Source: Stenotrophomonas nitritireducens
GTDB lineage: Bacteria; Pseudomonadota; Gammaproteobacteria; Xanthomonadales; Xanthomonadaceae
Direction of reading: 5' to 3'
DNA length: 64,000 nucleotides
Assembly (NCBI RefSeq): GCF_001431425.1
Contig: NZ_LDJG01000008.1
Coordinates: 1 to 64,000, forward strand
Positions 1-14,547 of the stretch are shown piece after piece (within the stretch, counting starts at the first letter, position 1; each line of letters begins with the position of its first letter). The notes below the pieces were generated by a model. It did not search any database. It had not been told where the DNA came from and saw only the letters and a list, made by a program, of their open reading frames with translations. The position numbers and the translations under genes are program-made.

Positions 1-263
1 CCGTCGTCCACCAGCATCGCAGAGGTGAGCCGGCCCCAGATCATGTCCGATACGCCCATCTGCACCATCTTGGCGCGGCTGGTGAAGCCCATCTTGATGC
101 CGATGCGGCGCTCGCCGCGGCGCAGCCGGCGTTCGATGCTCAGGCGCTGGATCGCATAGGCCTGTTCCAGGCTGATGGCCTGTTCCAGCTGCGGGGTGGC
201 GGTGGCGTGGCGGGCGGCGTCGTCCAGGCGCCCGGCCAGTGCCTCGATGTCGATGGCGGTCAT
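1..263 (-). CDS. dmpH: 4-oxalocrotonate decarboxylase, N-terminal part (cut by window edge)
   Basis: Only the first 87 codons lie in the window; the gene continues beyond position 1. The visible residues [13 protein letters not shown] and, further on, [13 protein letters not shown] and [12 protein letters not shown] are typical of the DmpH/XylI/NahK family, which decarboxylates 2-oxo-3-hexenedioate (4-oxalocrotonate keto form) to 2-hydroxypenta-2,4-dienoate using Mg2+. The ATG overlaps the stop of the aldolase gene (ATGA), so it is translated coupled to it as the fifth gene of the leftward meta-pathway operon. A related hydratase of the same fold (MhpD/DmpE) is possible from a fragment, but a separate hydratase is already present at 2246-3061, and the GFTSRAKM signature favours the decarboxylase. 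A 4-oxalocrotonate tautomerase, normally needed beside it, is not in the window and may lie just beyond. Confidence 0.8.
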
Positions 264-1291
264 GCGGTCTGTCCCTCGGTAGTGCGGTTGCGCGCCAGCA
301 GGTCCAGCGCGACGTCGACGATCATGTCTTCCTGTCCGCCGACCATGCGCCGGCGCCCCAGCTCGACCAGGATCGAGCGCACGTCCAGGCCGTGGTCGGC
401 GGCGGCCTTCTCGGCGTGGCGCAGGAAGCTGGAATAGACGCCGGCATAGCCCAGGCTCAGGGTTTCGCGGTCCACCCTTACCGGGCGGTCCTGCAGCGGC
501 CGCACCAGGTCGTCGGCCGCATCCATCAGCGCGTACAGGTCGCAGCCGTGCTCCCAGCCCATGCGCTCGACCGCGGCGATGAACACTTCCAGCGGCGCGT
601 TGCCGGCGCCGGCGCCCATCCCGGCCAGCGAGGCGTCCACGCGGGTCACGCCGTTCTCCACCGCGACGATGGAATTGGCCACGCCCAGCGACAGGTTGTG
701 GTGGGCGTGGATGCCGATCTGGGTCTCCGGGCGCAGCGCGTCGCGCAGCGCGCGCACGCGGTCGCGGGTATCGTCCATGGTCAGCGCGCCGCCGGAGTCG
801 GTCACGTACACGCAGTACGCGCCGTAGCTCTCCATCTTCAGCGCCTGCGCGGCCAGCTCGGCCGGCGAGGTCATGTGGCTCATCATCAGGAAGCCGGCCA
901 CGTCGATCTCCAGCCGGCGCGCCTCCTCGATGTGCTGGCGGGCGACGTCGGCCTCGGTGCAGTGGGTGGCCACGCGCACCGAGCGCACCCCGGCGGCCAC
1001 CGCTTCGCGCAGGTCGTGCACGGTGCCGATGCCGGGCAGCAGCAGGGTGGTCAGCTTCGCCTGCTGCACGCTCTCGCGTACCGCGGCGATCCATTCCAGG
1101 TCCGAATGGCGGCCGAAGCCATAGTTGAAGCTGGAGCCGGCCAGGCCGTCGCCGTGCGCGACCTCGATGGCGGCCACGCCGGCGCGGTCCAGCGCGGCGG
1201 CGATGGCGCGGGTGTGTTCCAGCCCGTACTGGTGGCGGATGGCGTGCATGCCATCGCGCAGGGTCACGTCCTGGATGTAGAGCCGGTTCAT
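260..1291 (-). CDS. dmpG: 4-hydroxy-2-oxovalerate aldolase
   Basis: This 343-residue protein splits 4-hydroxy-2-oxovalerate into pyruvate and acetaldehyde, and belongs to the DmpG/BphI/MhpE family of Mn2+-dependent HMGL-like TIM barrels. The family opening [15 protein letters not shown] (about residues 8-22) carries the catalytic Arg and metal-binding Asp and the His next to them; the metal ligands [12 protein letters not shown] are near residue 200, followed by [17 protein letters not shown]. Length equals that of the family. Its ATG overlaps the end of the acetaldehyde dehydrogenase gene by 4 nt, matching the physical channelling complex these two enzymes form in characterised pathways. It is the fourth gene of the leftward operon that starts at 4529. 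No unusual residue was seen. Confidence 0.95.
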
Positions 1292-2241
1292 CGCGCGTCC
1301 TCCTCGGTGGCGGTTTCCAGGGAAACCTCGACCATGCGTTCGGCCGCGGCCAGCGCCGCGGAGGTCATGATGTCCAGGTTGCCGGCATAGGCCGGCAGAT
1401 AGTGGCCGGCGCCTTCGACCTCGAGGAACACCGACACCTTCAGCCCCGGCGCGGCGTCGGCGCGGCCGAGGATGGCCGCGCACGCGGCGGCGTCCAGGGC
1501 TTCGAACTGCACCTGCTGCTTGAGCCGGTAACCGGGCACGTAGCCGGCCACGGTGGCGACCATGGCCTCGATGGACGCGGCGATCGCGGCCGGGTCGCCG
1601 CCTTCGGTCAGGCAGTACACGGTGTCGCGCATGATCAGCGGCGGCTCGGCCGGGTTGAGCACGATGATGGCCTTGCCGCGCTGCGCGCCGCCGACGGTTT
1701 CCAGCGCACGCGAGGTGGTCTCGGTGAACTCGTCGATGTTGGCGCGGGTGCCGGGGCCGGCCGACTTGCTGGCGATCGAGGCGACGATCTCGGCGTAGCG
1801 CACCGGCGCCACGCGCGCGACCGCGGCCACCACCGGGATGGTGGCCTGGCCGCCGCAGGTGACCATGTTGACGTTGCCCGCGGCCAGGTGCTGGTCCAGG
1901 TTGACCGCCGGCACCACGTAGGGGCCGACCGCGGCCGGGGTCAGGTCGATCACGCGCTTGCCGTCGGCGCGCAGCAGGCGGTCGTGGCCGACGTGGGCGC
2001 CGGCCGAGGTGGCGTCGAACACGATGTCGATGCCGGCGTATTCCGGCATCGCGCGCAGGCCTTCGATGCCGTCGTGGGTGGTCGCCACGCCGAGCCGGCG
2101 CGCGCGCGCCAGGCCGTCCGACTGCGGGTCCACGCCGACCATCGCCGCCATCTGCAGGTGGCGGCCGTGGCGCAGGATCTTGATCATCAGGTCGGTGCCG
2201 ATGTTGCCCGAACCGATCACCGCGACGTTGTGCTTGCTCAT
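1288..2241 (-). CDS. dmpF: acetaldehyde dehydrogenase (acylating)
   Basis: This 317-residue protein should oxidise acetaldehyde with CoA and NAD+ to acetyl-CoA (DmpF/BphJ/MhpF family). The Rossmann motif [16 protein letters not shown] is at residues 8-23. The catalytic Cys lies in [14 protein letters not shown] (about 130), and NLDIMTSAA is near the C terminus, all in family positions. It begins at an ATG 5 nt downstream of the hydratase stop and overlaps the aldolase start, so it is the third gene of the operon. Together with the aldolase it removes the toxic aldehyde as it forms. Function is very likely; the assignment to a dihydroxybenzoate rather than a catechol pathway rests on context. 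Confidence 0.95.
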
Positions 2242-2245
2242 GGGC

Positions 2246-3061
2246 TTACTCTCCACGGAAGGCGGCCGCGACCCGGCCCAGGCCGGAGATGCGGGCTTCG
2301 AAGACATCGCCCGGGCGCGCCACGGCCATCGGCCCCAGCGCCCCGGACAGCACGGTGTCGCCGGCGCGCAGCGGCCGGCCGATGCGCGCGGCGGTGCGCG
2401 CCAGCCACACCACCGCGTTGAGCGGATTGCCCAGGCAGGCCGCGCCGCAGCCCAGCGAGACCGGTTCGCCGCGCTGTTCCAGGCTCATGCCGCACAGGCG
2501 CAGGTCCAGCGCGTCGATCTTGCGGGGCGTGCCGCCGAGCACGTAGACGCCGGAGGAGGCGTTGTCGGCGATGGTGTCGAGGATGCTGATCTTCCAGTCG
2601 CGCACGCGGCTGTCGACCACCTCGATGGCCGGCAGCGCGTAGCCGATGGCCCCCAATACATGCCCCAGCGTCGGCCGTTCGGCGTCCAGGTCGCGATCGA
2701 GCACGAAGGCGATCTCGGCCTCGACCTTGGGCTGGATCAGGCGGCCGAGCGGGATCTCCTCGCCGTCGCCATAGGCCATGTCGTCGAACAGCATGCCGTA
2801 GTCGGGCTGGTCCACGCCCAGCTGCTGCTGCACCGCCACCGAGGTCAGGCCGATCTTGCGCCCGGACAGACGGCGGCCGTTGGCCAGCGCCTGCTCGGTG
2901 AGCAGGTGCTGGACCGCGTAGGCGGCGTCGATGCCGCCGGATCCGAGCAGCGGCGCGACCGGCTCGCAGGCCGTTCCACTGCGTGCGGCCTCGCCCAGTA
3001 GGCGCGCGGCCTCGCGCACCGGCGCGGTGCCGGCCAGCGCTTCAAAGCTTGATGCAGACAT
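2246..3061 (-). CDS. dmpE: 2-keto-4-pentenoate hydratase
   Basis: This 271-residue member of the fumarylacetoacetase-like hydratase/decarboxylase family adds water to 2-hydroxypenta-2,4-dienoate to give 4-hydroxy-2-oxovalerate. Visible signatures are [20 protein letters not shown] (about 67-86), the metal-binding region [16 protein letters not shown], where the paired acidic residues bind Mg2+, and PAIEVVDSR. The start codon lies 20 nt inside the end of the dehydrogenase gene, so translation is coupled. Downstream the acetaldehyde dehydrogenase begins after 4 nt. In other bacteria this enzyme forms a complex with the DmpH decarboxylase, whose gene is the last one visible in this operon. Confidence 0.93.
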
Positions 3062-4529
3062 TGCGCAGCTCCGTGTAGAACTCCAGCCCGTGGACGCCGC
3101 CTTCGCGGCCGATGCCCGACTGCTTGGCGCCGCCGAAGGCGGTGCGCAGGTCGCGCAGGAACCAGCAGTTGACCCAGGCCACGCCGACCTCGATGGCGGC
3201 GGCCACGCGGTGGGCGCGCGACAGGTCGCCGGTCCAGATCGAAGTGGCCAGCCCGTAGGGGCTGTCGTTGGCCGCGGCGATGGCTTCGTCCTCGCGGTCG
3301 AACGGGGCGATGTGGCAGCACGGCCCGAAGATCTCCTCGGTCAGCACCGCCGAATCGGCCGGCAGGCCGGTCCAGATGGTCGGTTCCACCCACCAGCCGC
3401 CGGACAGCGGCGCCGGCAGCGACGGCACGCCGCCGCCGGTGACGATGCTGGCGCCCTCGTTGCGCGCGCGGGCGTAGTAGGACAGCACCTTGTCGCGGTG
3501 CGCCTTGCTGATCAGCGGGCCGAACGTGGTGTCCCCGGCGTTCGGATCGCCCGGGCGCAGCGCCTCGGCCGCCTGCTTCAGGCGCGCGACGAAGGTGTCG
3601 AAGATCGGCCGTTCGACATAGATGCGTTCGGTGCCCAGGCAGACCTGGCCGCTGTTGAGGAAGGCCGAGCGGGTGGTGCCGGCGATGGCCGCGTCCAGGT
3701 CGCAGTCGGCGAAGACCACGGCCGCGTTCTTGCCGCCCAGTTCGAAGGAGACCGGGCGCACGCCCACCGCGGCGGCCTTCATGATCGCCGTGCCGGTGCG
3801 GGTTTCGCCGGTGAAGGTGATGCCGTTCACGTCGGGGTGTTCGGTCAGGTACTGGCCGGCGCTGTCCGGGCCGAAGCCGTGGACCACGTTGAACACGCCC
3901 GGCGGCACGCCGGCATCGTTCATCACCTCGGCCAGCAGGGTGGTCGTGCTGGGGGTTTCCTCCGACGGCTTGACCACCACGGTGTTGCCGAAGGCCAGCG
4001 CCGGGGCCACCTTCCAGGTCATCAGCAGCAGCGGCAGGTTCCACGGGCAGATCACCGCGATCACCCCGCGCGGGGTGCGCAGGCCGTAGTTGAGCGCGAT
4101 GCCGCCGTCGGGCGTGGGCGAGCGGAACGCCTCGGTGGCGCCGTGCGCCAGCTGGTCGGCGAACACGTCGAAGTTGGCCGCTCCACGCGGGATGTCCAGG
4201 TGGCTGGCCAGGCTGTACGGTTTGCCGGTATCGCGTACTTCGGCGGCGACGAACTCGTCGAAGCGGGCGCGGATGCCGTCGGCCAGCCGGCGCAGGATCG
4301 CCGCGCGCTCGCCGTCGGTGAGCCGGCCCCAGGGGCCGTGCAGGGCATCGCGCGCCGCGCGCACCGCCATGTCCACGATGCCGGCATCGGCCTCGTGGAC
4401 GTGGCCCACGACCTGGCCGGTGGCGGGATCGACATTGGCGAACGGAGGCCGGCTGGAAGTGACCGGGCGGCCTGCGATGTAGTGCGTGATGACAGAGGAG
4501 GCGGGCGCTTGCGCTGCAGTGATGTTCAT
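3042..4529 (-). CDS. dmpC: 2-hydroxymuconic semialdehyde dehydrogenase
   Basis: This 495-residue NAD+-dependent aldehyde dehydrogenase is the first gene of the leftward operon. It should oxidise 2-hydroxymuconic semialdehyde to 2-hydroxymuconate (4-oxalocrotonate). Domain landmarks are [20 protein letters not shown] (cofactor domain), [17 protein letters not shown], the general base in [12 protein letters not shown], the nucleophile in [12 protein letters not shown], and the DmpC/AmnC-type ending [19 protein letters not shown]. That ending is characteristic of the hydroxymuconic or aminomuconic semialdehyde subfamily, so an aminomuconate enzyme is the main alternative. No 2-hydroxymuconic semialdehyde hydrolase is present, so carbon would have to pass by this oxidative branch, as expected when ring cleavage yields an aldehyde. 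The ATG at 4529 follows a 237-bp AT-rich divergent promoter region. Confidence 0.9.
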
Positions 4530-4550
4530 GCGGTTTCCGTGGTCGAATCC

Positions 4551-4568
4551 ATAAATTACGAAATTTAT
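4551..4568. promoter_or_regulatory. perfect AT-rich palindrome before the dehydrogenase operon (candidate operator)
   Basis: ATAAATT, a 4-bp spacer ACGA, then AATTTAT: 7-bp arms that pair exactly, 22 bp upstream of the dehydrogenase start codon on the minus strand. It contains the CGAAATT core that recurs in the amidohydrolase promoter (4691-4698) and, in the other orientation, upstream of the GntR gene. It is a plausible binding site for that regulator, placed where it could block the leftward transcript. I could not identify a convincing -35/-10 pair for the leftward promoter. Confidence 0.45.
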
Positions 4569-4666
4569 TCCGTTTCCTCGTGGTGCTTCGGGGGCCGGAT
4601 ATCTGCCGTATTTCAGCCAAACATCAATGTTTATTGGATTGGCTTGGTGCGGCGATCATGCCAGAC

Positions 4667-4732
4667 AAATTTCGAGATGTCTGCAAAATATCGAAATTAA
4701 ATTTGACAAGCGAGGGGCGACTCTGCTTTGAT
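4667..4732 (+). promoter_or_regulatory. sigma-70-type promoter with shared upstream element, amidohydrolase operon
   Basis: A consensus -35 TTGACA at 4703-4708 is followed after 18 bp by TTTGAT at 4727-4732 (4 of 6 matches to -10). Directly upstream sits AAAATATCG (4685-4693), exactly 9 bp before the -35. The same block at the same distance precedes the TonB receptor promoter. A second AAATTTCGA half-site is at 4667-4675. The overlap of AT-rich half-sites with the -35 hexamer suggests repression by the GntR/FCD protein encoded at 9170-9892. Confidence 0.6.
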
Positions 4733-4766
4733 CGGTCCCACGCCCACGTTCCGGAGATGCACCCTG

Positions 4767-5921
4767 ATGGCCGCCGTTCCTGATTCCGTCCTCGCCCTGG
4801 CACCGCGCATGGCCGACTGGCGCCAGCGCATCCATGCCTGGCCCGAGCTGGGCTTCGAGGAAGAGCGCACCTCGGCACTGGTGGCCGAGGTGCTGCGCGG
4901 CCTCGGGCTGGACGTGCAAACCGGCCTGGGCGGCACCGGCGTGGTGGCGGTGATCGACTCCGGCAAGCCGGGGATGTCCATCGGCCTGCGCGCCGACATG
5001 GACGCCCTGCCCATGGACGAACAAAACGAGCTGCCGTACCGCTCGCAGCGCCCGGGCGTGGCCCACACCTGCGGCCATGACGGCCATACCGCCGCGCTGC
5101 TCGGCACCGCCGAGCACCTGGTGGCGAACCCGCCGGCCAGCGGCCGCGTGGTGCTGATCTTCCAGCCGGCCGAGGAAGGCGGGCGCGGCGCCATCAAGAT
5201 GGTCGAGGACGGCCTGTTCGAGCGCTGGCCGTGCGATGAGGTCTACGCCTTCCACAACATGCCGGCGCTGCCCGGCGGCCAGGCCAGCGTGCGCACCGGC
5301 GCCACGCTGCAGTCGCTGGCGGTGTTCGAGATCGCGATCGAGGGCGTCGGCGGCCATGCCGCCGCACCGCACCGCGCCAACGACCCGCTGCAGGTCGCCG
5401 CGCGCCTGGCGGTGGAGATCAGCGCCATCGTCGGCCGCCACATCGACCCGATGGAAGCGGCGCTGATCAATGTGGGCAGCCTGCAGGCCGGCACCACCCA
5501 CAACATCATCCCGTCCTCCGCCTCGCTCAGCGGCACCATCCGCTCGCTGTCGCGCGAGGTGCACGAGGAGCTGCTCAAGCGCCTGCGCGCACTGTGCGAG
5601 GGGTATGCGCAGATCTCCGGCTGCAGCATCGACCTGCGCATCCCGCACTCCTGCCCGCCCTGCGTCAACGCGCCGGAACAGGCCGCGCTGGCGGCGCAGG
5701 CGCTGGGCGACGTGCTGGGCGCGGACAACGTCAGGACCGACATGCGCGCCTATCCGTTCTCGGACGATTTTTCCTACATGCTGGAACAGTGGCCCGGCGC
5801 CTACCTGTTCCTGGGCATGGACAGCGCCATGTGCCACCACCCGACGTTCCGGTTCGACGACCAGCTGCTGCCGGTGGCCGCGGCGGTATTCGAGCGGATC
5901 GTGCGCCGCCGCCTGGGCTGA
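4767..5921 (+). CDS. M20D-family amidohydrolase (N-acyl amino acid hydrolase)
   Basis: This 384-residue metallopeptidase-fold enzyme is of the hippurate/IAA-amino-acid hydrolase type. Such enzymes cut the amide between an aromatic acid and an amino acid in the cytoplasm; there is no signal peptide. The two-metal site is complete: Cys102 and His104 in HTCGHDGHTA, Glu136/Glu137 in PAEEGG, His163 in AFHNMP and His357/358 near the C terminus. The dimerisation-domain motif GVGGHAAAPHRANDP is present. I chose ATG 4767, preceded by CCGGAG; a TTG 39 nt upstream would fall in the -10 box. It leads the rightward operon that also encodes a ring-cleaving dioxygenase, so the released acid is probably a catecholic acid. 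My preferred substrate is 2,3-dihydroxybenzoyl-serine or a similar siderophore fragment; plain hippurate-like conjugates remain possible. Confidence 0.85.
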   Translation: MAAVPDSVLALAPRMADWRQRIHAWPELGFEEERTSALVAEVLRGLGLDVQTGLGGTGVVAVIDSGKPGMSIGLRADMDALPMDEQNELPYRSQRPGVAHTCGHDGHTAALLGTAEHLVANPPASGRVVLIFQPAEEGGRGAIKMVEDGLFERWPCDEVYAFHNMPALPGGQASVRTGATLQSLAVFEIAIEGVGGHAAAPHRANDPLQVAARLAVEISAIVGRHIDPMEAALINVGSLQAGTTHNIIPSSASLSGTIRSLSREVHEELLKRLRALCEGYAQISGCSIDLRIPHSCPPCVNAPEQAALAAQALGDVLGADNVRTDMRAYPFSDDFSYMLEQWPGAYLFLGMDSAMCHHPTFRFDDQLLPVAAAVFERIVRRRLG

Positions 5922-5987
5922 GCCCGGGCGCCGCGCCGGCGCAACGTTCCTTCCCACGGCCCCCCGCATCCATTGAGGTACCGCGTC

Positions 5988-6890
5988 ATGTCGATCGTCG
6001 TCGAGCAACTGCGTTACGTCGTCCTTGGAACCCGCGACCTGGACGCGGCCGCGCATTTCGCCGGCACCGAACTGGGGCTGCAGGCGCTGCCGGCCGGCAA
6101 CGGCGAGCAGGCGTTCCGTTCCGACGAGCGCCAGTACAGCCTGGTCTATTCCAGCGCGTCGCCGCGCCGCCATGCGGTCGGCCTGGAACTGCGCGACGAA
6201 GCGGCGCTGCAGGCCGCGCTGCAGGCGCTGCAGGCGCGCGGCATCCCGGCGCAGCGCGATGCGGCGCTGGCCGCACGGCGCAACGTGCGCGTGCTGGCCG
6301 CGTTCACCACGCCCGGCGGCCTGTGCCTGGAACTGGTGGTGCGCCCGCAGAACCAGGGCTGGCGTTTCTTCCCCGCGCGCGACAGCGGCGTGGCCGGGCT
6401 GGCGGCGCTGGCGCTGCGCAGCACCGACGCGGCCGCCGACGAGGCGCTGCTGGTCGACCTGTTCGGCCTGCAGGTCCGCGACTGGATCGGCGATGCGTCC
6501 TACCTGGGCATGGATGCGGCGCACCACCGGCTGGCGTTGTTCCCGGCCGCGGCCGCCGGCGTGCTGGCGGTCGAGTTCGAGGTGCAGGGGCTGGACCAGG
6601 TGATGCAGCAGTACCACCGCCTGCGCGGACTGCCGCAGGCCATCGCGCACGGCCCCGGCCGCCGCCCCGCATCCGCGCAGGCGTTCGTCACCTTCGCCGG
6701 TCCCGACGCGGTGTACTACAGCTTCGTCGCCGAGGGCGAGCGCATCGCCGCCGCATCGCCGCGGCGCCCGCGCCAGTTCGCGATGCGCGCCGATTCGCAC
6801 TGCGCCTGGGGCAGCGACTGCGCCATCGCCGAGCTGGCGGCCGACGCGGTATCGCCGCGCCCGGCGCTGCGCGGAGTGCCCAGCGCATGA
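5988..6890 (+). CDS. VOC-family extradiol dioxygenase homologue lacking the iron ligands
   Basis: This 300-residue two-domain vicinal-oxygen-chelate protein aligns nearly without gaps to the intact dioxygenase encoded next to it (shared landmarks LGTRDLDAA, IGDASYLGMDAAHHRLALFP, HGPGRRPASA, FAGPD). Every first-sphere iron ligand is missing: the first His is Ala140, the second is Phe197 and the Glu aligns with Tyr244. The second-sphere His and Tyr are Arg226 and Thr235, while His180 is kept. It therefore cannot bind Fe(II) in the usual way and is probably a structural or substrate-binding partner or regulator, although another chemistry cannot be excluded. ATG 5988 is preceded by GAGGT at a good distance; a TTG at 5973 is less likely. 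Its stop overlaps the dioxygenase start (ATGA), so the two are made together. Confidence 0.8.
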   Translation: MSIVVEQLRYVVLGTRDLDAAAHFAGTELGLQALPAGNGEQAFRSDERQYSLVYSSASPRRHAVGLELRDEAALQAALQALQARGIPAQRDAALAARRNVRVLAAFTTPGGLCLELVVRPQNQGWRFFPARDSGVAGLAALALRSTDAAADEALLVDLFGLQVRDWIGDASYLGMDAAHHRLALFPAAAAGVLAVEFEVQGLDQVMQQYHRLRGLPQAIAHGPGRRPASAQAFVTFAGPDAVYYSFVAEGERIAAASPRRPRQFAMRADSHCAWGSDCAIAELAADAVSPRPALRGVPSA

Positions 6891-7744
6891 TCCAGCTGCG
6901 CGACGTGAGCTACGTGCGCCTGGGAACCCGCGACCTGGAAGGTGCCACGCGCTACGCCACGGCCATCCTCGGCCTGGAAGTGGCCGAGCGCGGCCATGGC
7001 GCGGCGTACTTCAAGTCCGACCAGCGCGAGCACACCCTGTGTTATTTCGAGGGCGACCCGGCCGACCAGGTCGTCGCCTTCGAGGTGGACACGCGCGCCG
7101 AACTGGACGCGGCGGGCGCCGAGCTCGAGCGGCTGGGGCATCCGGTGCACCGCGGCACCGCCGGCGAGGCGCAGCAGCGCAAGGTGCGCGACTTCATCGC
7201 CTTCCGCGACCCCACCGGCAACCGCATCGAGCTGGTGTGGCGGCCGCAGATGTCCTCGCGCCGCTACCACGGCGCGCGCGATGCCGGCATCACCGGCTTC
7301 AGCCACATCGGGCTGTGCACCACCGACGCGGTGCGCGACGAGGCGTTCTGGACTTCCGTGTGCAATGCGCGGGTCAGCGACCGCATCGGCGATGCGCCGC
7401 TGCTGCGCATCGACGAGGTCCACCACAAGATCGCGCTGTTCCCGACCAACCGCGCCGGCATCCAGCACATCAACCACCAGGTGGCCAGCGCCGACGACGT
7501 GCAGCGCTCGCTGCACCATCTGCGCAGCCAGGGCATCCCGGTGGTGTTCGGGCCCGGCCGCCATCCGACTTCGGGCGCGCGCTTCCTGTACTTCGAAGGG
7601 CCCGACGGCATGGTCTACGAATATTCCTCGGGCGTGAGCAGCATCGCCGACGAACTGCTGTACCGCGAACGCCAGTTCGAGTTCGCGCCGCCGGGCTTCT
7701 GCATGTGGGGCGCCGAGCCGCAGATCCGGGAGTTCCGCAAGTGA
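6887..7744 (+). CDS. type I extradiol dioxygenase, probable 2,3-dihydroxybenzoate 3,4-dioxygenase
   Basis: This 285-residue two-domain VOC protein has a complete type I extradiol active site: Fe(II) ligands His140 (GFSHIGL), His197 (QHINHQV) and Glu245 (MVYEYSSG), with second-sphere His180, His226 and Tyr235 at the spacings seen in BphC-type enzymes. The C-terminal half resembles 2,3-dihydroxy-p-cumate and 2,3-dihydroxybenzoate dioxygenases, which open the ring between carbons 3 and 4 and leave a carboxylated semialdehyde. The neighbouring decarboxylase and the semialdehyde dehydrogenase on the other strand fit that product. Substrate is inferred from pathway logic; the sequence alone shows only ring-cleavage competence. 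It overlaps both neighbours by 4 nt. Confidence 0.85.
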   Translation: MIQLRDVSYVRLGTRDLEGATRYATAILGLEVAERGHGAAYFKSDQREHTLCYFEGDPADQVVAFEVDTRAELDAAGAELERLGHPVHRGTAGEAQQRKVRDFIAFRDPTGNRIELVWRPQMSSRRYHGARDAGITGFSHIGLCTTDAVRDEAFWTSVCNARVSDRIGDAPLLRIDEVHHKIALFPTNRAGIQHINHQVASADDVQRSLHHLRSQGIPVVFGPGRHPTSGARFLYFEGPDGMVYEYSSGVSSIADELLYRERQFEFAPPGFCMWGAEPQIREFRK

Positions 7745-8424
7745 GCGCGCAGCTGGAGGCGCTGGCGCGCAGCGTGCGCGTGGCCGCTCGCGCGCTGGGC
7801 CGCGCCGGGCTGGTGCATGCCTATGGCCACTGCAGCGCACGCATCGACGCCGCTTCGTTCCTGGTGGCGCCGTCGCGGCCGCTGGGGCTGGTACGGCCGG
7901 GCGAGCGCTGCACGGTGGTGCCGCTGGAGGGCGAGCTGCCCGAGGGCGTGCTGCCGGAAGTGCGCATCCACCGCGAGATCTACCGCCGCCGCCCCGACGT
8001 CGGTGGCGTGGCGCGGATCCAGCCGCCGAAGCTGATGAGCCTGAGCGTGCTCGGCCGCACGCCGCTGGCCCGGCATGGTTTCGGCGCCTATTTCCACCCG
8101 CAGCCGCCGCTGTGGGACGACCCGCTGCTGCTGCGCTCGGACGTGCAGGCGCGGCGCCTGGCCGAACAGCTCGGCGACGCGCGCGCCATCGTCATGCGCG
8201 GCAATGGCGCGGTGACCGCCGGGCAGTCGCTGCAGGCGGCGGTGGTGCTGGCCTGGTACCTGGAAGACGCCGCGCGCGTGGAACTGGACTGCCTGTCCGC
8301 CGCCGCGCACACCCTGCCGACCTGCCTGAGCGAGGAGCAGTCCGCGGTCCGCGCGACCTGGAACGGCCGCCTGCTCGAGCGCATGTGGGACTACCTCACC
8401 GCGGGCGACGCCGAGCTGGACTGA
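7741..8424 (+). CDS. class II aldolase-fold protein, probable 3-carboxy-2-hydroxymuconate semialdehyde decarboxylase
   Basis: This 227-residue protein of the class II aldolase/adducin family starts with GTG at 7741 inside the stop of the dioxygenase gene (GTGA overlap). Members of this fold next to CmtC/DhbA-type dioxygenases remove the carboxyl group from the ring-cleavage product, here giving 2-hydroxymuconic semialdehyde for the dehydrogenase at 3042-4529. Family landmarks are AYGHCSARID (about 27-36), HREIYRRRPDVGGV (77-90) and VMRGNGAVTAGQS (151-163). The usual zinc-binding residues are changed: the H-x-H pair reads Arg92-Ile-Gln94, and the third His (RGHG) is Asn155. This argues against an aldolase and for a different, possibly metal-independent or differently liganded, decarboxylation. 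Role is inferred from context. Confidence 0.75.
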   Translation: MSAQLEALARSVRVAARALGRAGLVHAYGHCSARIDAASFLVAPSRPLGLVRPGERCTVVPLEGELPEGVLPEVRIHREIYRRRPDVGGVARIQPPKLMSLSVLGRTPLARHGFGAYFHPQPPLWDDPLLLRSDVQARRLAEQLGDARAIVMRGNGAVTAGQSLQAAVVLAWYLEDAARVELDCLSAAAHTLPTCLSEEQSAVRATWNGRLLERMWDYLTAGDAELD

Positions 8425-8469
8425 GCCGCCGCCCGCTTCCATTGCCACCCGAAGACGGAAGAAAGACCG

Positions 8470-9108
8470 ATGAAGATCCTGCTGAACGCGTCGCTGTTGG
8501 CGGCGCTCGGCCTGGCCGGCCATGCCGCGGCCGCCGACACCTGCGCCTCGGCCGATGATGCCAAGGTGATCCGCCACTACTACGCCCAGACCCGCCCCGG
8601 CGCACCGCCGCCCGCAGTGGCGCGCCTGTTCCGGATGGAGGAGACGCGCGTGGTCAGTGCGCTGGAGCCGGCCCAGGCCTACGGCGTGCGTTCCAACCGC
8701 CTGCTGTTCGACGAAGTCTGGAAATCGGTCGACGCCTGGGGCGCCGATACCCGCATCGGCATCGTGTTCACCTCCGGCGGCATGCATGTCTGGAACTTCC
8801 CCAGCAAGGTGCCGCAGACCCAGTCGACCACCACGCCGATCTGGTACGACATGTACGCCGATGGCGGCGCGGGCGTGCACGGGCACATCACGCCGCAGGA
8901 AGTGGACCAGATCTGGGCGTTGCAGATCCCCACCAAGGAAGCGGACAAGTTCACCCGCATCCTCGGCTTTTACGACAAGCAGGGCGCGCTGATCGTCGGC
9001 CTGTACGTGTCCGAGGGCGTGAAGGATTTCGATCCCAAGGCGGTGGCGGGCTTCGAGCGCACCCGCGAACTGCTGCGCGCGCAGCCGCGGATCTGCGCGG
9101 CCGGCTGA
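8470..9108 (+). CDS. exported ChuX/HutX-like protein
   Basis: This 212-residue protein has a clear signal peptide (MKILLNASLLAALGLAGHAAA, cleavage near residue 22), so it is predicted to be periplasmic. Residues about 75-205 line up by eye with the ChuX/HutX heme-utilisation fold: FDEVWKSVDAWG corresponds to the FDTVWDTVCEWG region of ChuX. Then follow a strand block around GGMHVWNFPSKVP, a GHI motif and the LGFYDKQGALIVGLYV segment. Known ChuX/HutX proteins are cytoplasmic heme carriers or heme-degrading helpers, so an exported form in a catabolic operon is unusual. It ends the rightward operon 45 nt after the decarboxylase. Possible roles are binding iron or a ferric catecholate released during siderophore opening; this is a guess. 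Convergent with the regulator gene beyond a hairpin. Confidence 0.65.
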   Translation: MKILLNASLLAALGLAGHAAAADTCASADDAKVIRHYYAQTRPGAPPPAVARLFRMEETRVVSALEPAQAYGVRSNRLLFDEVWKSVDAWGADTRIGIVFTSGGMHVWNFPSKVPQTQSTTTPIWYDMYADGGAGVHGHITPQEVDQIWALQIPTKEADKFTRILGFYDKQGALIVGLYVSEGVKDFDPKAVAGFERTRELLRAQPRICAAG

Positions 9109-9113
9109 GATCC

Positions 9114-9142
9114 TGCCTCCGCGCCCGGCGGGCGTGGAGGCA
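9114..9142. terminator. bidirectional hairpin between convergent genes
   Basis: A 13-bp stem with one G-T pair (TGCCTCCGCGCCC with GGGCGTGGAGGCA) closes on a 3-nt GGC loop between the end of the exported ChuX-like gene and the end of the GntR gene. No T-run follows on either strand, so it may act by stalling or by protecting mRNA ends. Confidence 0.6.
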
Positions 9143-9169
9143 CCTGGCCGCGGCGTGCGGCAGCGCCGG

Positions 9170-9892
9170 TCACGAAGCGTCTTTCTGCCCGGCGTCCAGC
9201 GCCGCCACGGTCTTGCGCACCTCGTCGTAGGTGCGCATCAGGTGGTCGTGGGTAAGGCGGCAGGCGCGCAGCGCGTTGCGTTCCAGGGTCGCCTCGAAGA
9301 TCGCCTGGTGCTCGTCCTGCACGAAGCGCTTGCCGCGCGAGGCGCTCAGCGACACCCGCCGGTAGCGTTCGGCCTGGTGGTAGAGCAGTTCCTGCAGCTT
9401 GATCAGCCACGGCGAATCGCAGGCGGACACCAGCGCATAGTGGAACTGGCGGTTGCGGTCTTCCCAGGCGTCGAGCAGCTCCTGCGGAGCGGCTTCGCCG
9501 CGGCCCAGCACTTCGCCCTCGACCTCATTGAGGGCGTCGTAGGTCTCGCGCACGCGCGCTTCCCAGGCTTCGTCGCCGCGCTCGATCGACAGCCGCAGCG
9601 CCTCGGTCTCGATCAGGTTGCGCACCCGCGAGATGTCGTCCAGTTCCTCCAGCGACAGCGGCGACACCCAGAAACCGCGCTGGTCCTCGGTCTTCACCAG
9701 CTGGTCGCCGACCAGCCGCGCCAGCGCCTCGCGCAGCGGCGACATGCCGATCTCGTAATGCTGGACCAGGGCCTCGAGCTTGAGCTTGCCGCCCGGCGGC
9801 CACTGGCCGTGGACGATGTCGCGGCGCAGGCGCTGGTAGGCGCGTTTGGCCAGGGTACGGGCGGCGGCCGGGGCGGAGGCGGTGGTCTTCAT
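9170..9892 (-). CDS. GntR-family transcriptional regulator, FCD type
   Basis: This 240-residue protein has an N-terminal winged helix (about residues 15-80, with the recognition region MSPLREALARLVGDQLV) and a C-terminal all-helical FCD ligand domain (about 90-230). Asp/His residues in this type of domain often bind a metal that helps hold carboxylate ligands. FadR-subfamily regulators usually repress catabolic operons and release DNA when they bind a pathway acid. It sits between the two rightward transcripts, is transcribed leftward, and faces an AT-rich region holding several AATTTCG copies. The likely effector is 2,3-dihydroxybenzoate or a ring-cleavage product, and the likely targets are its own gene, the divergent catabolic operons and the receptor gene. 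This regulation is inferred from site distribution only. Confidence 0.85.
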   Translation of the reverse strand: MKTTASAPAAARTLAKRAYQRLRRDIVHGQWPPGGKLKLEALVQHYEIGMSPLREALARLVGDQLVKTEDQRGFWVSPLSLEELDDISRVRNLIETEALRLSIERGDEAWEARVRETYDALNEVEGEVLGRGEAAPQELLDAWEDRNRQFHYALVSACDSPWLIKLQELLYHQAERYRRVSLSASRGKRFVQDEHQAIFEATLERNALRACRLTHDHLMRTYDEVRKTVAALDAGQKDAS

Positions 9893-10256
9893 GCGTACAG
9901 TGTGGGGCGGGAATTTCGAAAATCAAATTTCTCTGCTGTGATGCAGCATTCCCCGGATTAATTTCGACAACGGGAATTTCGCTAAATTTCCGTGACGGAA
10001 ATAAGTGATTGTTTTTAAACATTTCGATTGGGGGTTGTCGTGCGTTGTTGTCAATCAATCGCATGATGGAAGAAAAAATATCGTAATTTTCGTTGACACC
10101 TCGACGCGCTCTTGCTGTGATCCGGGTGCACTCCGGCGCCAGCGCCGGCCTTCGGAACGTGGATGGGGCATCGGCCCGGGCCCGGGAACGGCCACTGCCG
10201 GCGACATGCCGGGCAGCGTGGGCGTCCATCCGTCAGCCACAGTGAATTGCGGGGGA
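9893..10256. promoter_or_regulatory. 364-bp AT-rich control region with repeated AATTTCG half-sites
   Basis: This gene-free stretch is far richer in A and T than its surroundings. AATTTCG-type half-sites lie at 9912-9919, 9960-9967 and 9975-9982, with close variants at 9984-9991 (AAATTTCC) and 10021-10027 (ATTTCGA). The same core occurs in the divergent region at 4551-4708. The left part should hold the promoter and autoregulatory sites of the GntR gene, and the right part holds the receptor promoter. No Fur-box-like GATAAT array is visible, so classical iron repression of the receptor is not supported by the sequence. Confidence 0.55.
10075..10121 (+). promoter_or_regulatory. promoter of the TonB receptor-esterase operon
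   Basis: TTGACA at 10093-10098 and TGTGAT at 10116-10121 are separated by 17 bp. AAAATATCG at 10075-10083 lies 9 bp before the -35, exactly as in the amidohydrolase promoter (4685-4732). The resulting leader before the ATG at 10257 is about 130 nt. Confidence 0.6.
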
Positions 10257-13199
10257 ATGATGAGCAGTCGAGCAGGGCAACAGCGGGTTCTGGCCAGCGG
10301 ATTTTCGATATTGGCGGTGTGCATCGCCGGCGCATTGCAGGCGCAGGAGGCACCGGTGCAACTGGATACGGTGGTCGTCACCGGCACCAACATCCGCGGC
10401 GCGACGCCGGCGGGCAACGCCGTGATGGTGATCGGCGCCGAGCAGATCCAGGCCAGCGGCAAGGCCACGGTGGGCGATTTCCTGCGCGAACTGCCGGCCA
10501 ACTTCGCCGGCGGCGTGGGCATGAGCGACAACATCCAGGGGTCGGACAGCAGCGTCGCCGGCTCCAACATGACCGGCGGCCAGGGCGTGAACCTGCGCGG
10601 CCTGGGCGCCCTGTCCACGCTGGTGCTGGTCAACGGCCGCCGCGTCGCGGCCGCCGGCCAGTACGGGGATTTCGTCGACATCTCGACCATCCCCAGCAAT
10701 GCGGTCGACCACATCGAGGTCCTGCTCGACGGCGCTTCGGCGGTGTACGGCTCCGACGCGGTCGGCGGCGTGGTCAACATCATCCTCAAGCGCAGCGACG
10801 ACGGCGCCCGCACCACCGTCCGCCTCGGCAACGCCACCGAGGGCGGCAACAGCCAGGTCCAGATCGGCCAGACCTGGGGCAGGCACTGGGACGGCGGCGG
10901 CATGATCGTCGGCTACGAATACGACCGGCAGGACGCGCTGGCCGCCACCGACCTGGGCATCTACCGCTCCGGCAGCGACTTCAGCGACCGCGGCGGCGTC
11001 AACTGGCGCCGTGCCGGCGCCCGTGCCGGTGCGGCGGCCAACCAGTTCAACACGCCCACCGCCAACGGCTGGGGCACCCCGGCCCGGCGCATCTCCGGCG
11101 GCAGCCTGGTCGCGGTGACCGATGGCGTCGGCAACACCCACGATGCCTGGGACAAGGTGGACATCCTGCCGGAGATGCAGCGCCACAGCGCCTTCGTCGG
11201 CTTCGAGCATGAGGTCGGCGCCGTCGGCCTGTACGGCGACCTGCGCTATACCCGCCGTCGCGGCACCTACAACCAGGGCTACCAGGCGCTGTACGGCACC
11301 CTTGGCCCGAACAATCCGTACCTGATCCCGGGCGTGGCCAACAACTATGGCGTGCTGATCGACGACCGCCCGCTGCAGCGCGAGGTCGGGGTGGACAGCA
11401 TCGCCGCGACCATCGGCGCCGGCTTCGACCTCGGCGGCAGCTGGCGCGGCGAAGCCACGCTCAGCTACAGCCGCGACGAGCAGTTCCGCAACTCCGACGT
11501 GCAGCGCAACGCCAACATCTACGACTACCTGCCCACGCCTGCCGGCGGCAGGGTGCAGGCGCCGACTGCGATCCAGTGCAGCCAGGGCCTGCCGGCCAAC
11601 GCCACCCCGGCACAGCTGGCCTACTGCGCCGGGCTCAACTACGCCGCGTTCAACCCGTGGACCACCGAGCCGCTGTCCGCGCAGGTGCTGTCGCAGCTGA
11701 TCGGCTACGAGAACCTCGACTTCGCCTCGTGGCTGGCGCAGGCCAGTTTCAAGGTCGATGGCGACCTGTTCGCGATGCCCGGCGGCATCGCCAAGCTGGC
11801 CGCGGGCATCGATTACCGCCGCGAGAACATCGGTGGCGAACTGGACTTCAACTGGCGCTCGACCTCGGGCAAGCACGAAGTCTTCGGCACCACCGAGCGC
11901 GACGTGGGCGCGGTGTTCGCGGAACTGGCCTTCCCGCTGATCGGCAAGGACAACGCCTCGCGCTTCGCGCAGAAGCTGGACCTGTCCCTGGCCGCCCGCT
12001 ACGAGCGCAGCAGCGGCATGGGCGACTTCTCCACCTTCAATCCGAAGGTCGGCCTGGACTTCAAGCCCACCGACGCACTGACCCTGCGCGCCAGCTGGGG
12101 CACCTCGTTCCATGCCCCGCCGATGCGCTACGCCTACGACGGCGTGCAGCCGATCACCGGCGGCAATGGCGCGTTCCTGCGTGCGGACCTGTACCGCGCG
12201 CCCTGCGATACCACCGTGGTCCCGCTCAACGGCGTGTCCAACACCGCCGCCGGCTGCACCTTCAACGCGATCGTCGTCTCCGGCGGCGCCGGCCCGACGC
12301 TGAAGCCGGAAGAGGCCAGGACCTGGACCCTGGGCTTCGACTGGAAGCCGGAGTGGGCGCCGGGCCTGCGTGCCGGCGCGAGCTACTTCAACCTGAAGGT
12401 CGACGACCGCATCGTGCGCATCCAGGCCGGGCAGCTGGGCGGCATCCTCAACGACCTGTTCACCAAGGGCGCCACCCCGTACATCGGCAGCCTTGAGATC
12501 AATCCGGGCGCGGACCGCGTGCGCCAGATCATGGAGAACGACCCGCGCTACCTCGGCCAGCTCGGTGCCGGCCCGGTGATGGGGCCGGCGGACGTGGCGA
12601 TGATCGTCAACGCCACCCAGCTCAACCTGGCCTCGCTGAGGATGGACGGCTTCGACTTCAATCTGGACTACGGCTTCGACACCCGCTACGGCGGTTCGCT
12701 GGAGTTCTTCAACCGCGGCACCCTGCTCAAGTCCTACGAGATCGAGGCCACGCCGGGCGCCGGCTACGTCGACCGCCTCGCCAGGTACAGCGCCGCCGAC
12801 GGCTCCAGTCCGGTCAAGCTGCGCTCGATGCACGGGGTGAAGTGGTACTACGGCAACCTCAACGCATCGCTGACGATGAACTACGTGGACGACTACCAGT
12901 GCGTGGCCGGCTGCTTCCTGCCCAATGCGCAGGGCATGCCGGTGGCGGCGACCGCGCCGGTGAAGATCAAGGCCTGGAAGACCTTCGACTTCCACCTGGG
13001 CTACGACCTGTCCGACATCGGCGGCCTGTTCCGCGACTCGCGGGTGAACTTCACCGCCATCAACCTCACCAACAGTGCGCCGCCGTTCTTCGACACCGGT
13101 ACCACCGCTGCCGTCGATACCCTGCCGGACCCCTATGATCCAGCCAACGCGACGGTGATGGGCCGCAGCCTGGTGCTGTCGTTCGACAAGCGCTGGTGA
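10257..13199 (+). CDS. TonB-dependent outer-membrane receptor
   Basis: This 980-residue precursor starts at the first of two tandem ATGs, after GCGGGGGA. A signal peptide (about 1-30, ending near LQAQ) precedes a plug domain that opens with LDTVVVTGTNIRGATP and contains VNLRGLGALSTLVLVNGRRV and DGASAVYGSDAVGGVVNIIL. The rest is a 22-strand barrel ending in the aromatic SFDKRW. The family is the large Xanthomonas/Caulobacter nutrient-type receptor group rather than a close FepA homologue, so the ligand cannot be named from sequence. It is followed by an exported enterobactin-esterase-like hydrolase and shares a promoter element with the dihydroxyaromatic catabolic operon. I infer uptake of a catecholate siderophore or a related phenolic ester. 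Energised by TonB-ExbBD encoded elsewhere. Confidence 0.93.
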   Translation: MMSSRAGQQRVLASGFSILAVCIAGALQAQEAPVQLDTVVVTGTNIRGATPAGNAVMVIGAEQIQASGKATVGDFLRELPANFAGGVGMSDNIQGSDSSVAGSNMTGGQGVNLRGLGALSTLVLVNGRRVAAAGQYGDFVDISTIPSNAVDHIEVLLDGASAVYGSDAVGGVVNIILKRSDDGARTTVRLGNATEGGNSQVQIGQTWGRHWDGGGMIVGYEYDRQDALAATDLGIYRSGSDFSDRGGVNWRRAGARAGAAANQFNTPTANGWGTPARRISGGSLVAVTDGVGNTHDAWDKVDILPEMQRHSAFVGFEHEVGAVGLYGDLRYTRRRGTYNQGYQALYGTLGPNNPYLIPGVANNYGVLIDDRPLQREVGVDSIAATIGAGFDLGGSWRGEATLSYSRDEQFRNSDVQRNANIYDYLPTPAGGRVQAPTAIQCSQGLPANATPAQLAYCAGLNYAAFNPWTTEPLSAQVLSQLIGYENLDFASWLAQASFKVDGDLFAMPGGIAKLAAGIDYRRENIGGELDFNWRSTSGKHEVFGTTERDVGAVFAELAFPLIGKDNASRFAQKLDLSLAARYERSSGMGDFSTFNPKVGLDFKPTDALTLRASWGTSFHAPPMRYAYDGVQPITGGNGAFLRADLYRAPCDTTVVPLNGVSNTAAGCTFNAIVVSGGAGPTLKPEEARTWTLGFDWKPEWAPGLRAGASYFNLKVDDRIVRIQAGQLGGILNDLFTKGATPYIGSLEINPGADRVRQIMENDPRYLGQLGAGPVMGPADVAMIVNATQLNLASLRMDGFDFNLDYGFDTRYGGSLEFFNRGTLLKSYEIEATPGAGYVDRLARYSAADGSSPVKLRSMHGVKWYYGNLNASLTMNYVDDYQCVAGCFLPNAQGMPVAATAPVKIKAWKTFDFHLGYDLSDIGGLFRDSRVNFTAINLTNSAPPFFDTGTTAAVDTLPDPYDPANATVMGRSLVLSFDKRW

Positions 13200-13207
13200 G
13201 CAACGCA

Positions 13208-13236
13208 GGCCTGTCCGGCATCATGCCGGGCAGGCC
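13208..13236. other. intercistronic hairpin between receptor and esterase genes
   Basis: Arms GGCCTGTCCGGCA and TGCCGGGCAGGCC (one G-T pair) close on a TCA loop, 9 nt after the receptor stop. A Shine-Dalgarno GGGAGAG follows at once, so this looks like an expression-tuning hairpin in a shared transcript rather than a full terminator. Confidence 0.55.
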
Positions 13237-13248
13237 GGGAGAGAATCG

Positions 13249-14418
13249 ATGATGAAAGCAGTATCCGTGGTGCTGGCACTGGGCCTGGCCCTGGCGCCAG
13301 CGATGGCGGCGGCCGCACCGGACCAGCCCGCCGCAGCGGCCGCCACGCCGTTGCAGGTCAAGGGCGCGCAGCAGTTCGACCTGGCCGCCGCCGATGGCCG
13401 CAACTACCGCATTTTCGTGTCGGTGCCGGACAAGCCGGCGCCGCGCGGCGGCTACGGCGTGTTCTACGTGCTGGACGGCAACGCCATGTTCCTCACCGCG
13501 CTGGAGACGGTGCGCGCCATGGAGCGCCGCCCCGACGTGCCGCGCGACCTGGCCACGGTGGTGGTCGGCATCGGCTACCCCGACGGCGTGGACATCGGTA
13601 GCGCGCGCACCCTGGACCTGACGCCGCCGGGCAGCGGCAACCCGCGCATCAGCGCGGCTTCGGGCGGCGCCGATGCCTTCCTCGACTTCATCGAGGGCCG
13701 GCTCAAGCCGCGCATCGCCGCACTGGCGCCGGTCGACCCGGCCCGGCAGGCGCTGTTCGGGCATTCCTTCGGCGGCCTGTTCGTGCTGCATTCGATGCTG
13801 CGCAAGCCCGATGCCTTCGCCGTGCGCGCAGCGGCCAGTCCGTCGATCTGGTTCGACCGCGCCGACATCGCCCGGCGACTGGCCGATACCCTGGCCACGC
13901 GCCCCTCCGGATCGCCGCCGCTCAAGCTGCTGCTCACCGCGGGCGAGTACGAGCAGGCGCTGTCGCCGCTGGCGCACTCGCGGCCGAATGTCGCCAAGCT
14001 GGCGCTGCTGCAGAAGGAACGGGCGCAGGTGGACAGCAGCCGCGCCCTGGCAGCGGCACTGGTGGAGCGCACGCCCGTGGATGCGCGCTTCGACGAGATC
14101 GCCGGCGAGGACCACGGCACGGTCATCCCTGCGGCGATCAGCCGCGCGGTGTCGTTCATGCTGATGCCGCAGATGGAAGTGCCGCCGGTGCCCACGGCCG
14201 CCGCGTACTGGCAGATGACGCCCGAACAGCGCTACGACCTGCGCATGTGGGTACGGCAGCTGCCCGACCGCCAGCGCATCCCCTGGCTGACCCGCCTGCG
14301 CGACACCCTGCACGACGGCCTGAGCAAGGAGCAGGGCCAGGTCCTGCATGAAGAGCGCAACCGGATGGACGCCGAGCAGGGCAGCCGGCCGCATGACGTA
14401 AACGCGCCGGCGCGCTGA
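13249..14418 (+). CDS. exported alpha/beta-hydrolase, IroE/BesA-type esterase
   Basis: This 389-residue protein of the putative-esterase family (PF00756 type) has a signal peptide (about 1-23) and is predicted periplasmic. The strand-turn VFYVLDGNAMFLTA (71-84) and VVVGIGYPDGVDIGSAR (104-120) are features of trilactone siderophore esterases such as IroE and BesA. The nucleophile is Ser173 in GHSFGGL, the base is His289 in GEDHGTV, and the acid is probably in the GEYEQ segment near 233. A C-terminal extension of about 80 residues (from about 310) has no match I recognise. It lies 49 nt behind the TonB receptor. The expected reaction is hydrolysis of the lactone of an imported catecholate siderophore, freeing dihydroxybenzoyl-amino acid units. 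Feruloyl-type or other ester substrates are alternatives. Confidence 0.8.
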   Translation: MMKAVSVVLALGLALAPAMAAAAPDQPAAAAATPLQVKGAQQFDLAAADGRNYRIFVSVPDKPAPRGGYGVFYVLDGNAMFLTALETVRAMERRPDVPRDLATVVVGIGYPDGVDIGSARTLDLTPPGSGNPRISAASGGADAFLDFIEGRLKPRIAALAPVDPARQALFGHSFGGLFVLHSMLRKPDAFAVRAAASPSIWFDRADIARRLADTLATRPSGSPPLKLLLTAGEYEQALSPLAHSRPNVAKLALLQKERAQVDSSRALAAALVERTPVDARFDEIAGEDHGTVIPAAISRAVSFMLMPQMEVPPVPTAAAYWQMTPEQRYDLRMWVRQLPDRQRIPWLTRLRDTLHDGLSKEQGQVLHEERNRMDAEQGSRPHDVNAPAR

Positions 14419-14434
14419 GCCGCGTGATCGCGGC

Positions 14435-14477
14435 GACGCCCGCGCCCGCGCCCGCTCCGGGCGCGGGCGTCGTTTTT
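14435..14477 (+). terminator. rho-independent terminator after the esterase gene
   Basis: A perfect 13-bp stem (GACGCCCGCGCCC with GGGCGCGGGCGTC) with an 11-nt loop is followed by GTTTTT at 14472-14477. It ends the receptor-esterase transcript and marks the right boundary of the catabolic island. Confidence 0.9.
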
Positions 14478-14547
14478 CCAGGCACCCGCCCGGCAGCAGG
14501 GTCCATCGAGGCGTCTAAGCGGTACCTGTCGGCGGTCGCGAACAGGG

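Follow-up and report, generated by a model that had tools for sequence, protein, structure and literature searches.

Relation to described systems

The gene block analysed here lies at the start (positions 3–14,418) of a 64,000-nucleotide stretch of the Stenotrophomonas nitritireducens genome (bases 1–64000 of contig C78, in a 3.98-Mb assembly of 95 contigs; hereafter the window). Its closest described counterparts are the dhb cluster of Pseudomonas reinekei MT1 and the opa cluster of Pseudomonas sp. PTH10, which take free 2,3-dihydroxybenzoate or o-phthalate (PMC6362003). Like these clusters, the block combines a type I extradiol dioxygenase (OpaC has 285 aa, as does the enzyme here), an oxidative branch through 2-hydroxymuconic semialdehyde dehydrogenase (HMSD), a decarboxylase, a hydratase, an aldolase and an acylating aldehyde dehydrogenase, the tautomerase being present in relatives of the window. 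The decarboxylase DhbB of MT1 is of the class II aldolase type and can be likened, by its fold description, to the protein encoded at 7741–8424; OpaD belongs to the Amidohydro_2 superfamily (PMC6362003). The likeness to both clusters is drawn from context and description. Unlike dhb and opa, the block has a TonB-dependent receptor, a siderophore-class esterase, an M20D amidohydrolase and, in relatives, a serine deaminase in front, as well as one shared promoter motif and an extra, metal-dead dioxygenase paralogue.

The front end recalls enterobactin piracy by PfeA/PfeE of P. aeruginosa, which likewise pairs a TonB receptor with an IroE-class esterase expected outside the cytoplasm (PMC8001512), but the block has a receptor that is not of the FepA type, another motif, and enzymes that would degrade the product. 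Desferrioxamine degraders hydrolyse siderophore amides as food, for carbon and nitrogen, as the block would; their substrate is a hydroxamate rather than a catecholate and no ring cleavage is involved (cited in PMC11800396). According to one paper, dihydroxybenzoate and serine could become available as substrates if enterobactin were hydrolysed completely, but the E. coli strain studied there gives off products whose hydrolysis is incomplete (PMC10788543). Among the matches listed in the open-access literature, outside which most subscription papers lie, none describes a gene-level route for catecholate siderophores as food; within these matches the parts are known and their assembly is new, and the catabolic route itself is likely new. 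Siderophores are treated as public goods or as stolen iron keys. If true, the route proposed below would be a sink on enterobactin-type molecules, would give DUF3100 a testable function, and would make the combination of esterase, M20D and sdaA a genetic marker for finding siderophore eaters.

Gene content of the block

We regard the block as a real, coherent and rare catabolic unit, which most likely degrades an enterobactin-type siderophore via dihydroxybenzoyl-serine for carbon and nitrogen. To the full reading, in which the block imports a foreign siderophore of this type, hydrolyses it to dihydroxybenzoyl-L-serine, splits the latter into L-serine and 2,3-dihydroxybenzoate and degrades both, we give a probability of roughly 60%. 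What is seen directly is gene order, gene families, a shared motif, co-occurrence across genomes and a duplication of sdaA in four relatives. The receptor, esterase, M20D, dioxygenase, aldolase-fold and HMSD genes named in the original prediction were borne out at their positions by open reading frames and family searches; the paralogue at 5988–6890, the HutX-fold protein, the GntR/FCD regulator and the motif are additional to it. The features are as follows.

3–263, minus: 4-oxalocrotonate (2-oxo-3-hexenedioate) decarboxylase, first 87 aa, truncated by the contig start (TIGR03218 58.6 bits, below the cut-off of 350.55)
260–1291, minus: 4-hydroxy-2-oxovalerate aldolase (TIGR03217 569.3 bits, cut-off 286)
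1288–2241, minus: acylating acetaldehyde dehydrogenase (TIGR03215 464.7 bits, cut-off 282.25)
2246–3061, minus: 2-oxopent-4-enoate hydratase (top model NF008461 338.1 bits, slightly below the cut-off of 350)
3042–4529, minus: HMSD (TIGR03216 841 bits, cut-off 693.25)
4554–4566, minus: operator-like motif with one mismatch, HMSD side of the divergent region (genome and window motif search)
4686–4698, plus: operator-like motif AAATATCGAAATT, M20D promoter, just upstream of TTGACA (motif search)
4767–5921, plus: M20D amidohydrolase, candidate dihydroxybenzoyl-serine amidase (TIGR01891 334.4 bits, cut-off 153.75; metal-site motifs present)
5988–6890, plus: metal-dead paralogue of the extradiol dioxygenase, with A/A/S replacing H/H/E (family searches, alignment)
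6887–7744, plus: type I extradiol dioxygenase, candidate 2,3-dihydroxybenzoate 3,4-dioxygenase (family searches; H140, H194, E245)
7741–8424, plus: class II aldolase-fold protein without the canonical zinc histidines, candidate 3-carboxy-2-hydroxymuconate semialdehyde decarboxylase (PF00596 77.8 bits)
8470–9108, plus: HutX/ChuX-fold protein, N-terminus signal-peptide-like by eye (PF06228 39.1 bits, cut-off 25)
9170–9892, minus: GntR/FCD regulator that may read the motif (PF00392 and PF07729 above cut-off)
10076–10088, plus: operator-like motif AAATATCGTAATT, receptor promoter, just upstream of TTGACA (motif search)
10257–13199, plus: TonB-dependent receptor of the large, ~980-aa type (PF00593 and PF07715 above cut-off)
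13249–14418, plus: esterase of the IroE/PfeE/Bes class, N-terminus signal-peptide-like by eye (phmmer)

With TIGR03216 above its cut-off, the block has the oxidative HMSD branch of DhbA/OpaC-type meta pathways. The lower pathway had been called whole and the pathway self-contained, which the window does not support: the contig begins inside the 4-oxalocrotonate decarboxylase, leaving 87 aa, and the tautomerase lies outside the window. The fragment is 87% identical to the full-length protein of S. mori (genome G012, locus L006), which scores 224.6 bits with TIGR03218, also below the cut-off. Searched with S. mori DNA, the assembly of the window host did not yield the missing part: only the fragment in the window and the other copy of sdaA, broken at a contig end, were matched. 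The remainder is carried by S. mori and by Pseudoxanthomonas broegbernensis (L024, a contig continued in L108/L109). It consists of the tautomerase, a gene for DUF3100 (S. mori) or for an MHS-type transporter (P. broegbernensis), and the beginning of sdaA, with a cytochrome b561 gene in between in S. mori.

A shared promoter motif

Allowing one mismatch, the motif AAATATCGWAATT occurs at three sites in the whole assembly (two exact, one with a mismatch), all of them in the two divergent control regions of the block, the HMSD/M20D and gntR/receptor intergenic regions; the reversed control pattern gave none. The same threshold gave three sites in the window against none in 100 shuffles of it, and the mismatched site has a counterpart in S. 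mori at L006 7373. Across the six close Xanthomonadaceae loci defined below, the exact motif was found at 5/5 M20D promoters and at 6/6 gntR-adjacent receptor promoters, that is, at 11 promoters. Judged from these sites, the block behaves as one unit, since the motif marks the control regions of the lower pathway, the amidase and ring-cleavage genes, and the receptor/esterase pair; this supports the joining of these parts in the original prediction. The candidate reader is the GntR/FCD protein (9170–9892). That esterase and receptor are accidental neighbours was rejected because of this shared rare motif. At the loci L110, L111, L195 and L211 no motif site was found within one mismatch.

Distribution of the block

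The block is rare: in a sample of 395 genomes of the family, the dioxygenase was matched at E ≤ 1e-40 in four, and an earlier survey of 61 genomes at E ≤ 1e-10 gave close matches only in the window host and S. mori, plus a distant one (30%) in G003. Relatives are encoded by 218 stretches found in a scan of GTDB contigs, and the 80 best of these make up the wider loci. Together with the window, five of these form a close Xanthomonadaceae set with 77–95% dioxygenase identity: L006 (S. mori), L007 (a Lysobacterales metagenome-assembled genome, MAG), L008 and L009 (Luteimonas) and L024 (P. broegbernensis). The receptor, esterase, GntR, HutX-like, dioxygenase and aldolase-fold genes are present in all six, and M20D in all five in which it can be counted, the sequence of L007 starting at the dioxygenase gene. 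P. broegbernensis additionally has a second receptor and three more esterase genes. Among the 75 other wider loci, several of them short, no receptor, esterase or HutX-like match was found at E ≤ 1e-8, and M20D reached at best 41%, in two loci. The predicted co-occurrence of the parts across genomes is accordingly upheld in the close lineage and fails beyond it; the 75 loci lacking the esterase indicate that ring cleavage is the wider module, to which only the close lineage couples a siderophore-type front end.

Serine deaminase and the DUF3100 position

A second, near-identical gene for L-serine deaminase (sdaA) is present in four of the six carriers (G012, G119, G439 and G440). The L-serine ammonia-lyase model TIGR00720 has one match in 28 of 29 other genomes, the window host and G012 being set apart and non-carrier Luteimonas genomes lying outside this sample; G045 has an extra partial match. 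Two 5' ends occur in G012, G119 and G440, while G439 combines a complete gene with a single 5' end; 3' ends are seen twice in each of G012 and G440. Within a genome these ends are 98–100% identical in DNA over 95–725 nt, whereas between genomes the SdaA proteins are 80–82% identical for most 5' parts and 92–97% when 3' parts or the shortest 5' fragments are compared; such a pattern points to gene conversion or to duplication that happened repeatedly. One copy per genome lies, in all four, downstream of the DUF3100 gene or of the MHS transporter gene, on the lower-pathway strand. Moreover, a Porin_5 gene follows one sdaA 3' end in S. mori and in Luteimonas BDR2-5 (G440) and was not found at 34 other sdaA loci (flanks of up to 1.5 kb; the locus of the window host ends inside sdaA), so that sdaA is probably internal to the operon. 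From the same Porin_5 pattern, sdaA as a mere island edge was judged unlikely.

Besides S. mori (L006 716–2059), the DUF3100 membrane protein is tied to M20D and sdaA at L110 14859–16223 and L111 14390–15709, and at L024 670–2001 the MHS-type transporter occupies its position. Its predicted structure, from three sequences, has a pLDDT of 39, and DUF3100 is not named in any paper of the open-access literature searched.

Compact clusters without ring cleavage

Two genomes of the same family, G112 and G061, have no dioxygenase match in the 395-genome sample and carry a compact cluster in which an esterase-receptor pair is followed by a divergent LysR gene and by DUF3100, M20D, GntR/FCD and sdaA in a row. 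Compared with the proteins of the island or of S. mori, the esterase is 50–52% identical, DUF3100 62–63%, GntR 58–60% and M20D 44%. The G061 receptor is 62% identical to that of the window, and the G112 receptor is IreA/CirA-like over its full length (3.4e-89 to 2hdf; NF010011 559 bits, below the cut-off of 1197). These clusters thus share esterase, TonB receptor, DUF3100, M20D, GntR and sdaA with the block, but differ in showing no ring cleavage, in their more distant M20D, in having no motif within one mismatch and, in G112, in the CirA/IreA-like receptor. Because a different M20D occurs in the same gene set, it can be argued that an aroyl-serine amidase is needed there. Together, sdaA in the operon of four carriers and the compact clusters of two relatives point to dihydroxybenzoyl-serine as the substrate. 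The joined siderophore-to-food reading of the original prediction has in this way gained support from the motif, the co-occurrence, sdaA in four carriers and a recurrence without ring cleavage.

Ring-cleavage enzymes

The dioxygenase at 6887–7744 is intact, as predicted: its 2-His-1-Glu triad (H140, H194, E245) is present and invariant in 19 aligned sequences. Its gene overlaps those of the paralogue (5988–6890) and the aldolase-fold protein (7741–8424). Of 81 scored sets, most of them alphaproteobacterial, 73 hold the pair of intact dioxygenase and metal-dead paralogue, the unpaired ones being L007 (where the contig starts), L042 (with a shorter match at 9393, excluded by length filters), L063, L064, L068, L070, L077 and L085. 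In all 73 scored cases the paralogue has lost the iron triad and kept the neighbouring histidines 179–180, and it is possibly a pseudoenzyme subunit of the type I extradiol dioxygenase.

The aldolase-fold protein scores 50.9 bits with NF053537, below the cut-off of 200. The histidines that bind zinc in class II aldolases are absent from all 60 aligned aldolase-fold proteins, which, in contrast with a solved aldolase, have R-x-M/Q for H-x-H and RGNG or KGNG for HHG; HAYGHC, E73, R75 and H77 are kept in all 60.

Where the wider loci were annotated (a subset that does not include the arrangement of L010, L011, L013, L016 and L018), the core is accompanied by TRAP or ABC importers, HMSD, an FAH-family gene and an HpcH/HpaI aldolase, or by a Rieske oxygenase, an SDR and an Amidohydro_2 gene, the latter context resembling the opa cluster. 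A dioxygenase family accompanied by either kind of decarboxylase fits 2,3-dihydroxybenzoate, which makes the enzyme a candidate for acting on this substrate. The label on relatives, 2,3-dihydroxy-p-cumate/2,3-dihydroxybenzoate 3,4-dioxygenase, is the source's own annotation. An HMSD branch without a ring-fission-product hydrolase is expected for 2,3-dihydroxybenzoate rather than p-cumate; as the block has HMSD and no such hydrolase was recognised in it, p-cumate is the less likely substrate.

Esterase, HutX-like protein and siderophore source

The closest phmmer matches of the esterase are Bes (2qm0, 4e-33), PfeE (6gi0, 9.9e-31) and IroE (2gzr, 4e-19), and all 11 solved-structure matches at E ≤ 1e-12 are siderophore or enterobactin esterases, EstB or IroE-like. 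The catalytic residues are present, namely the GHSFGG serine S173 (GxSxG) and the histidine H289 of a C-terminal GEDH; the score with the NCBIfam enterochelin esterase model is 24.6 of 222 bits. We infer that the enzyme hydrolyses an enterobactin-type serine ester backbone. In P. broegbernensis (L108 3825–8814), three esterase genes of this class follow one another behind the second receptor.

The predicted model of the HutX-like protein has a pLDDT of 85.3 and its fold matches HutX (5exv, E 1.8e-10). It has 87 relatives at E ≤ 1e-5, and those named by organism are all from Xanthomonadaceae/Lysobacteraceae.

The siderophore would be foreign to the window host, since this strain lacks a strong dihydroxybenzoate-activating enzyme: with the 2,3-dihydroxybenzoate-AMP ligase model TIGR02275 (cut-off 724) the best scores are 161 bits in its genome (G000), 156 in G012 and 166 in G119, and the strain probably makes no such siderophore. 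Two Luteimonas carriers reach 676 and 686 bits, still below the cut-off, and may make one. Enterobactin genes were reported in most of 213 surveyed Stenotrophomonas genomes (PMC11138164), so the molecule would be at hand.

Proposed pathway

The siderophore would be taken up by the TonB receptor, and the exported IroE/PfeE-type esterase would, like PfeE, act in the periplasm and open the backbone of serine esters. Dihydroxybenzoyl-serine would then be carried inward by DUF3100 in relatives, or by the MHS-type transporter in P. broegbernensis, and the M20D amidase, for which no signal peptide is evident, would release L-serine and 2,3-dihydroxybenzoate. By its family function, the second SdaA would convert L-serine to pyruvate and ammonium. 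Ring opening at 3,4 would fall to the dioxygenase, perhaps together with its metal-dead partner; the product would be decarboxylated by the aldolase-fold protein, and HMSD would begin the oxidative meta branch leading to pyruvate and acetyl-CoA. Finally, the GntR/FCD protein likely senses a pathway acid at the motif sites. For a stronger version, a dedicated enterobactin-eating regulon that burns the whole molecule, with DUF3100 as the first dihydroxybenzoyl-serine importer, M20D and the second serine deaminase drawing carbon and nitrogen from serine, a two-subunit dioxygenase and relatives bearing a stripped, serine-only version, we see about even odds.

Competing explanations

Several observations weigh against the siderophore route, and part of them favour an explanation that we consider unlikely, though it is the strongest of the alternatives, in which the substrate of the block is some other catecholic acid ester or amide, for example a plant dihydroxybenzoate or hydroxycinnamate conjugate, with general hydrolases and an incidental siderophore link. 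The large receptor passes the cut-off of no NCBIfam siderophore-receptor model (for example 70.1 against 745 bits for CirA) and matches solved receptors in the plug region only; as far as its sequence goes, it is not of the classical FepA/CirA siderophore class. Moreover, 18 other genomes, namely G229 and 17 from a single genus, have M20D orthologues (81–91% identity) that lie apart from any recognised meta pathway, and island and non-island copies are intermixed in the M20D tree. The promoter motif is also non-Fur, and many aroyl amino acids serve as substrates of the M20D family. The amidase specificity for siderophore conjugates claimed in the original prediction is weak or unsupported, as 18 genomes have near orthologues that stand outside loci of this kind, and a specificity read from the sequence was rejected as evidence, given the mixed tree. 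Around these 18 M20D genes another receptor lies within about 9 kb in 13, and one (L195) has a receptor and a 33% identical esterase within about 8 kb; the dioxygenase, DUF3100 and sdaA were found beside the orthologue in none of the 18. At L211 (9267–12038), M20D and HMSD form a divergent pair without the rest of the block, possibly a remnant of it. What speaks for a siderophore rather than another conjugate is the uniform class of the solved esterase matches, sdaA within the operon in four relatives, the CirA/IreA-like receptor beside a 50–52% identical esterase in G112, and, in P. broegbernensis, the three further esterases that accompany a second receptor.

Rather improbable, and more so than another conjugate, is xenosiderophore piracy primarily for iron, in which ring cleavage would remove the leftover iron-binding 2,3-dihydroxybenzoate and carbon would be a by-product. 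Enterobactin gives up its iron in the periplasm when PfeE hydrolyses it (PMC8001512), a HutX-fold protein lies in the operon, and the host has no strong dihydroxybenzoate-activating enzyme, all of which would suit it. Set against this, no Fur box better than chance was found (with the E. coli consensus), on which ground classical Fur-controlled uptake was rejected, and the oxidative lower pathway and the relatives' serine deaminase exceed the needs of detoxification. The iron part of the siderophore reading is itself weak, as neither such a Fur box nor, within the block, a recognisable iron ABC importer was found, and iron as a purpose, claimed in the original prediction, is weak or unsupported given the missing Fur box and the class of the receptor.

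The other points against the siderophore route concern its consistency across genomes. Three of the four dioxygenase carriers in the 395-genome sample have the block, while the fourth (G419) is opa-like by eye, and L040, labelled an Arenimonas MAG, with 66% dioxygenase identity and counted among the 75 other loci, has no receptor, esterase or M20D. The second receptor of P. broegbernensis has a two-mismatch site only, and the motif was not found within one mismatch in G112 or G061. As for sdaA, contigs break in the gene, and its junctions are therefore deduced from contig ends (overlaps of 95–725 nt); its neighbourhood could be an insertion hot spot; and a second copy was seen neither in the window host nor in the MAG G441 (two of the six carriers). 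In the window host we infer that it falls within the assembly gap. That unrelated modules, a 2,3-dihydroxybenzoate meta pathway and a receptor-esterase pair with another job, merely lie side by side is very improbable, for although G061 and G112 have such pairs but no dioxygenase match, and 75 of 80 loci have the dioxygenase core without receptor and esterase, one rare motif stands at both control regions and is exact in 11 related promoters, and the parts are jointly present in all six close loci.

Directly after the esterase, a gene at 14548–15192 codes for a PIN7-domain protein (PF18475 104.5 bits) that is apparently unrelated to the block.

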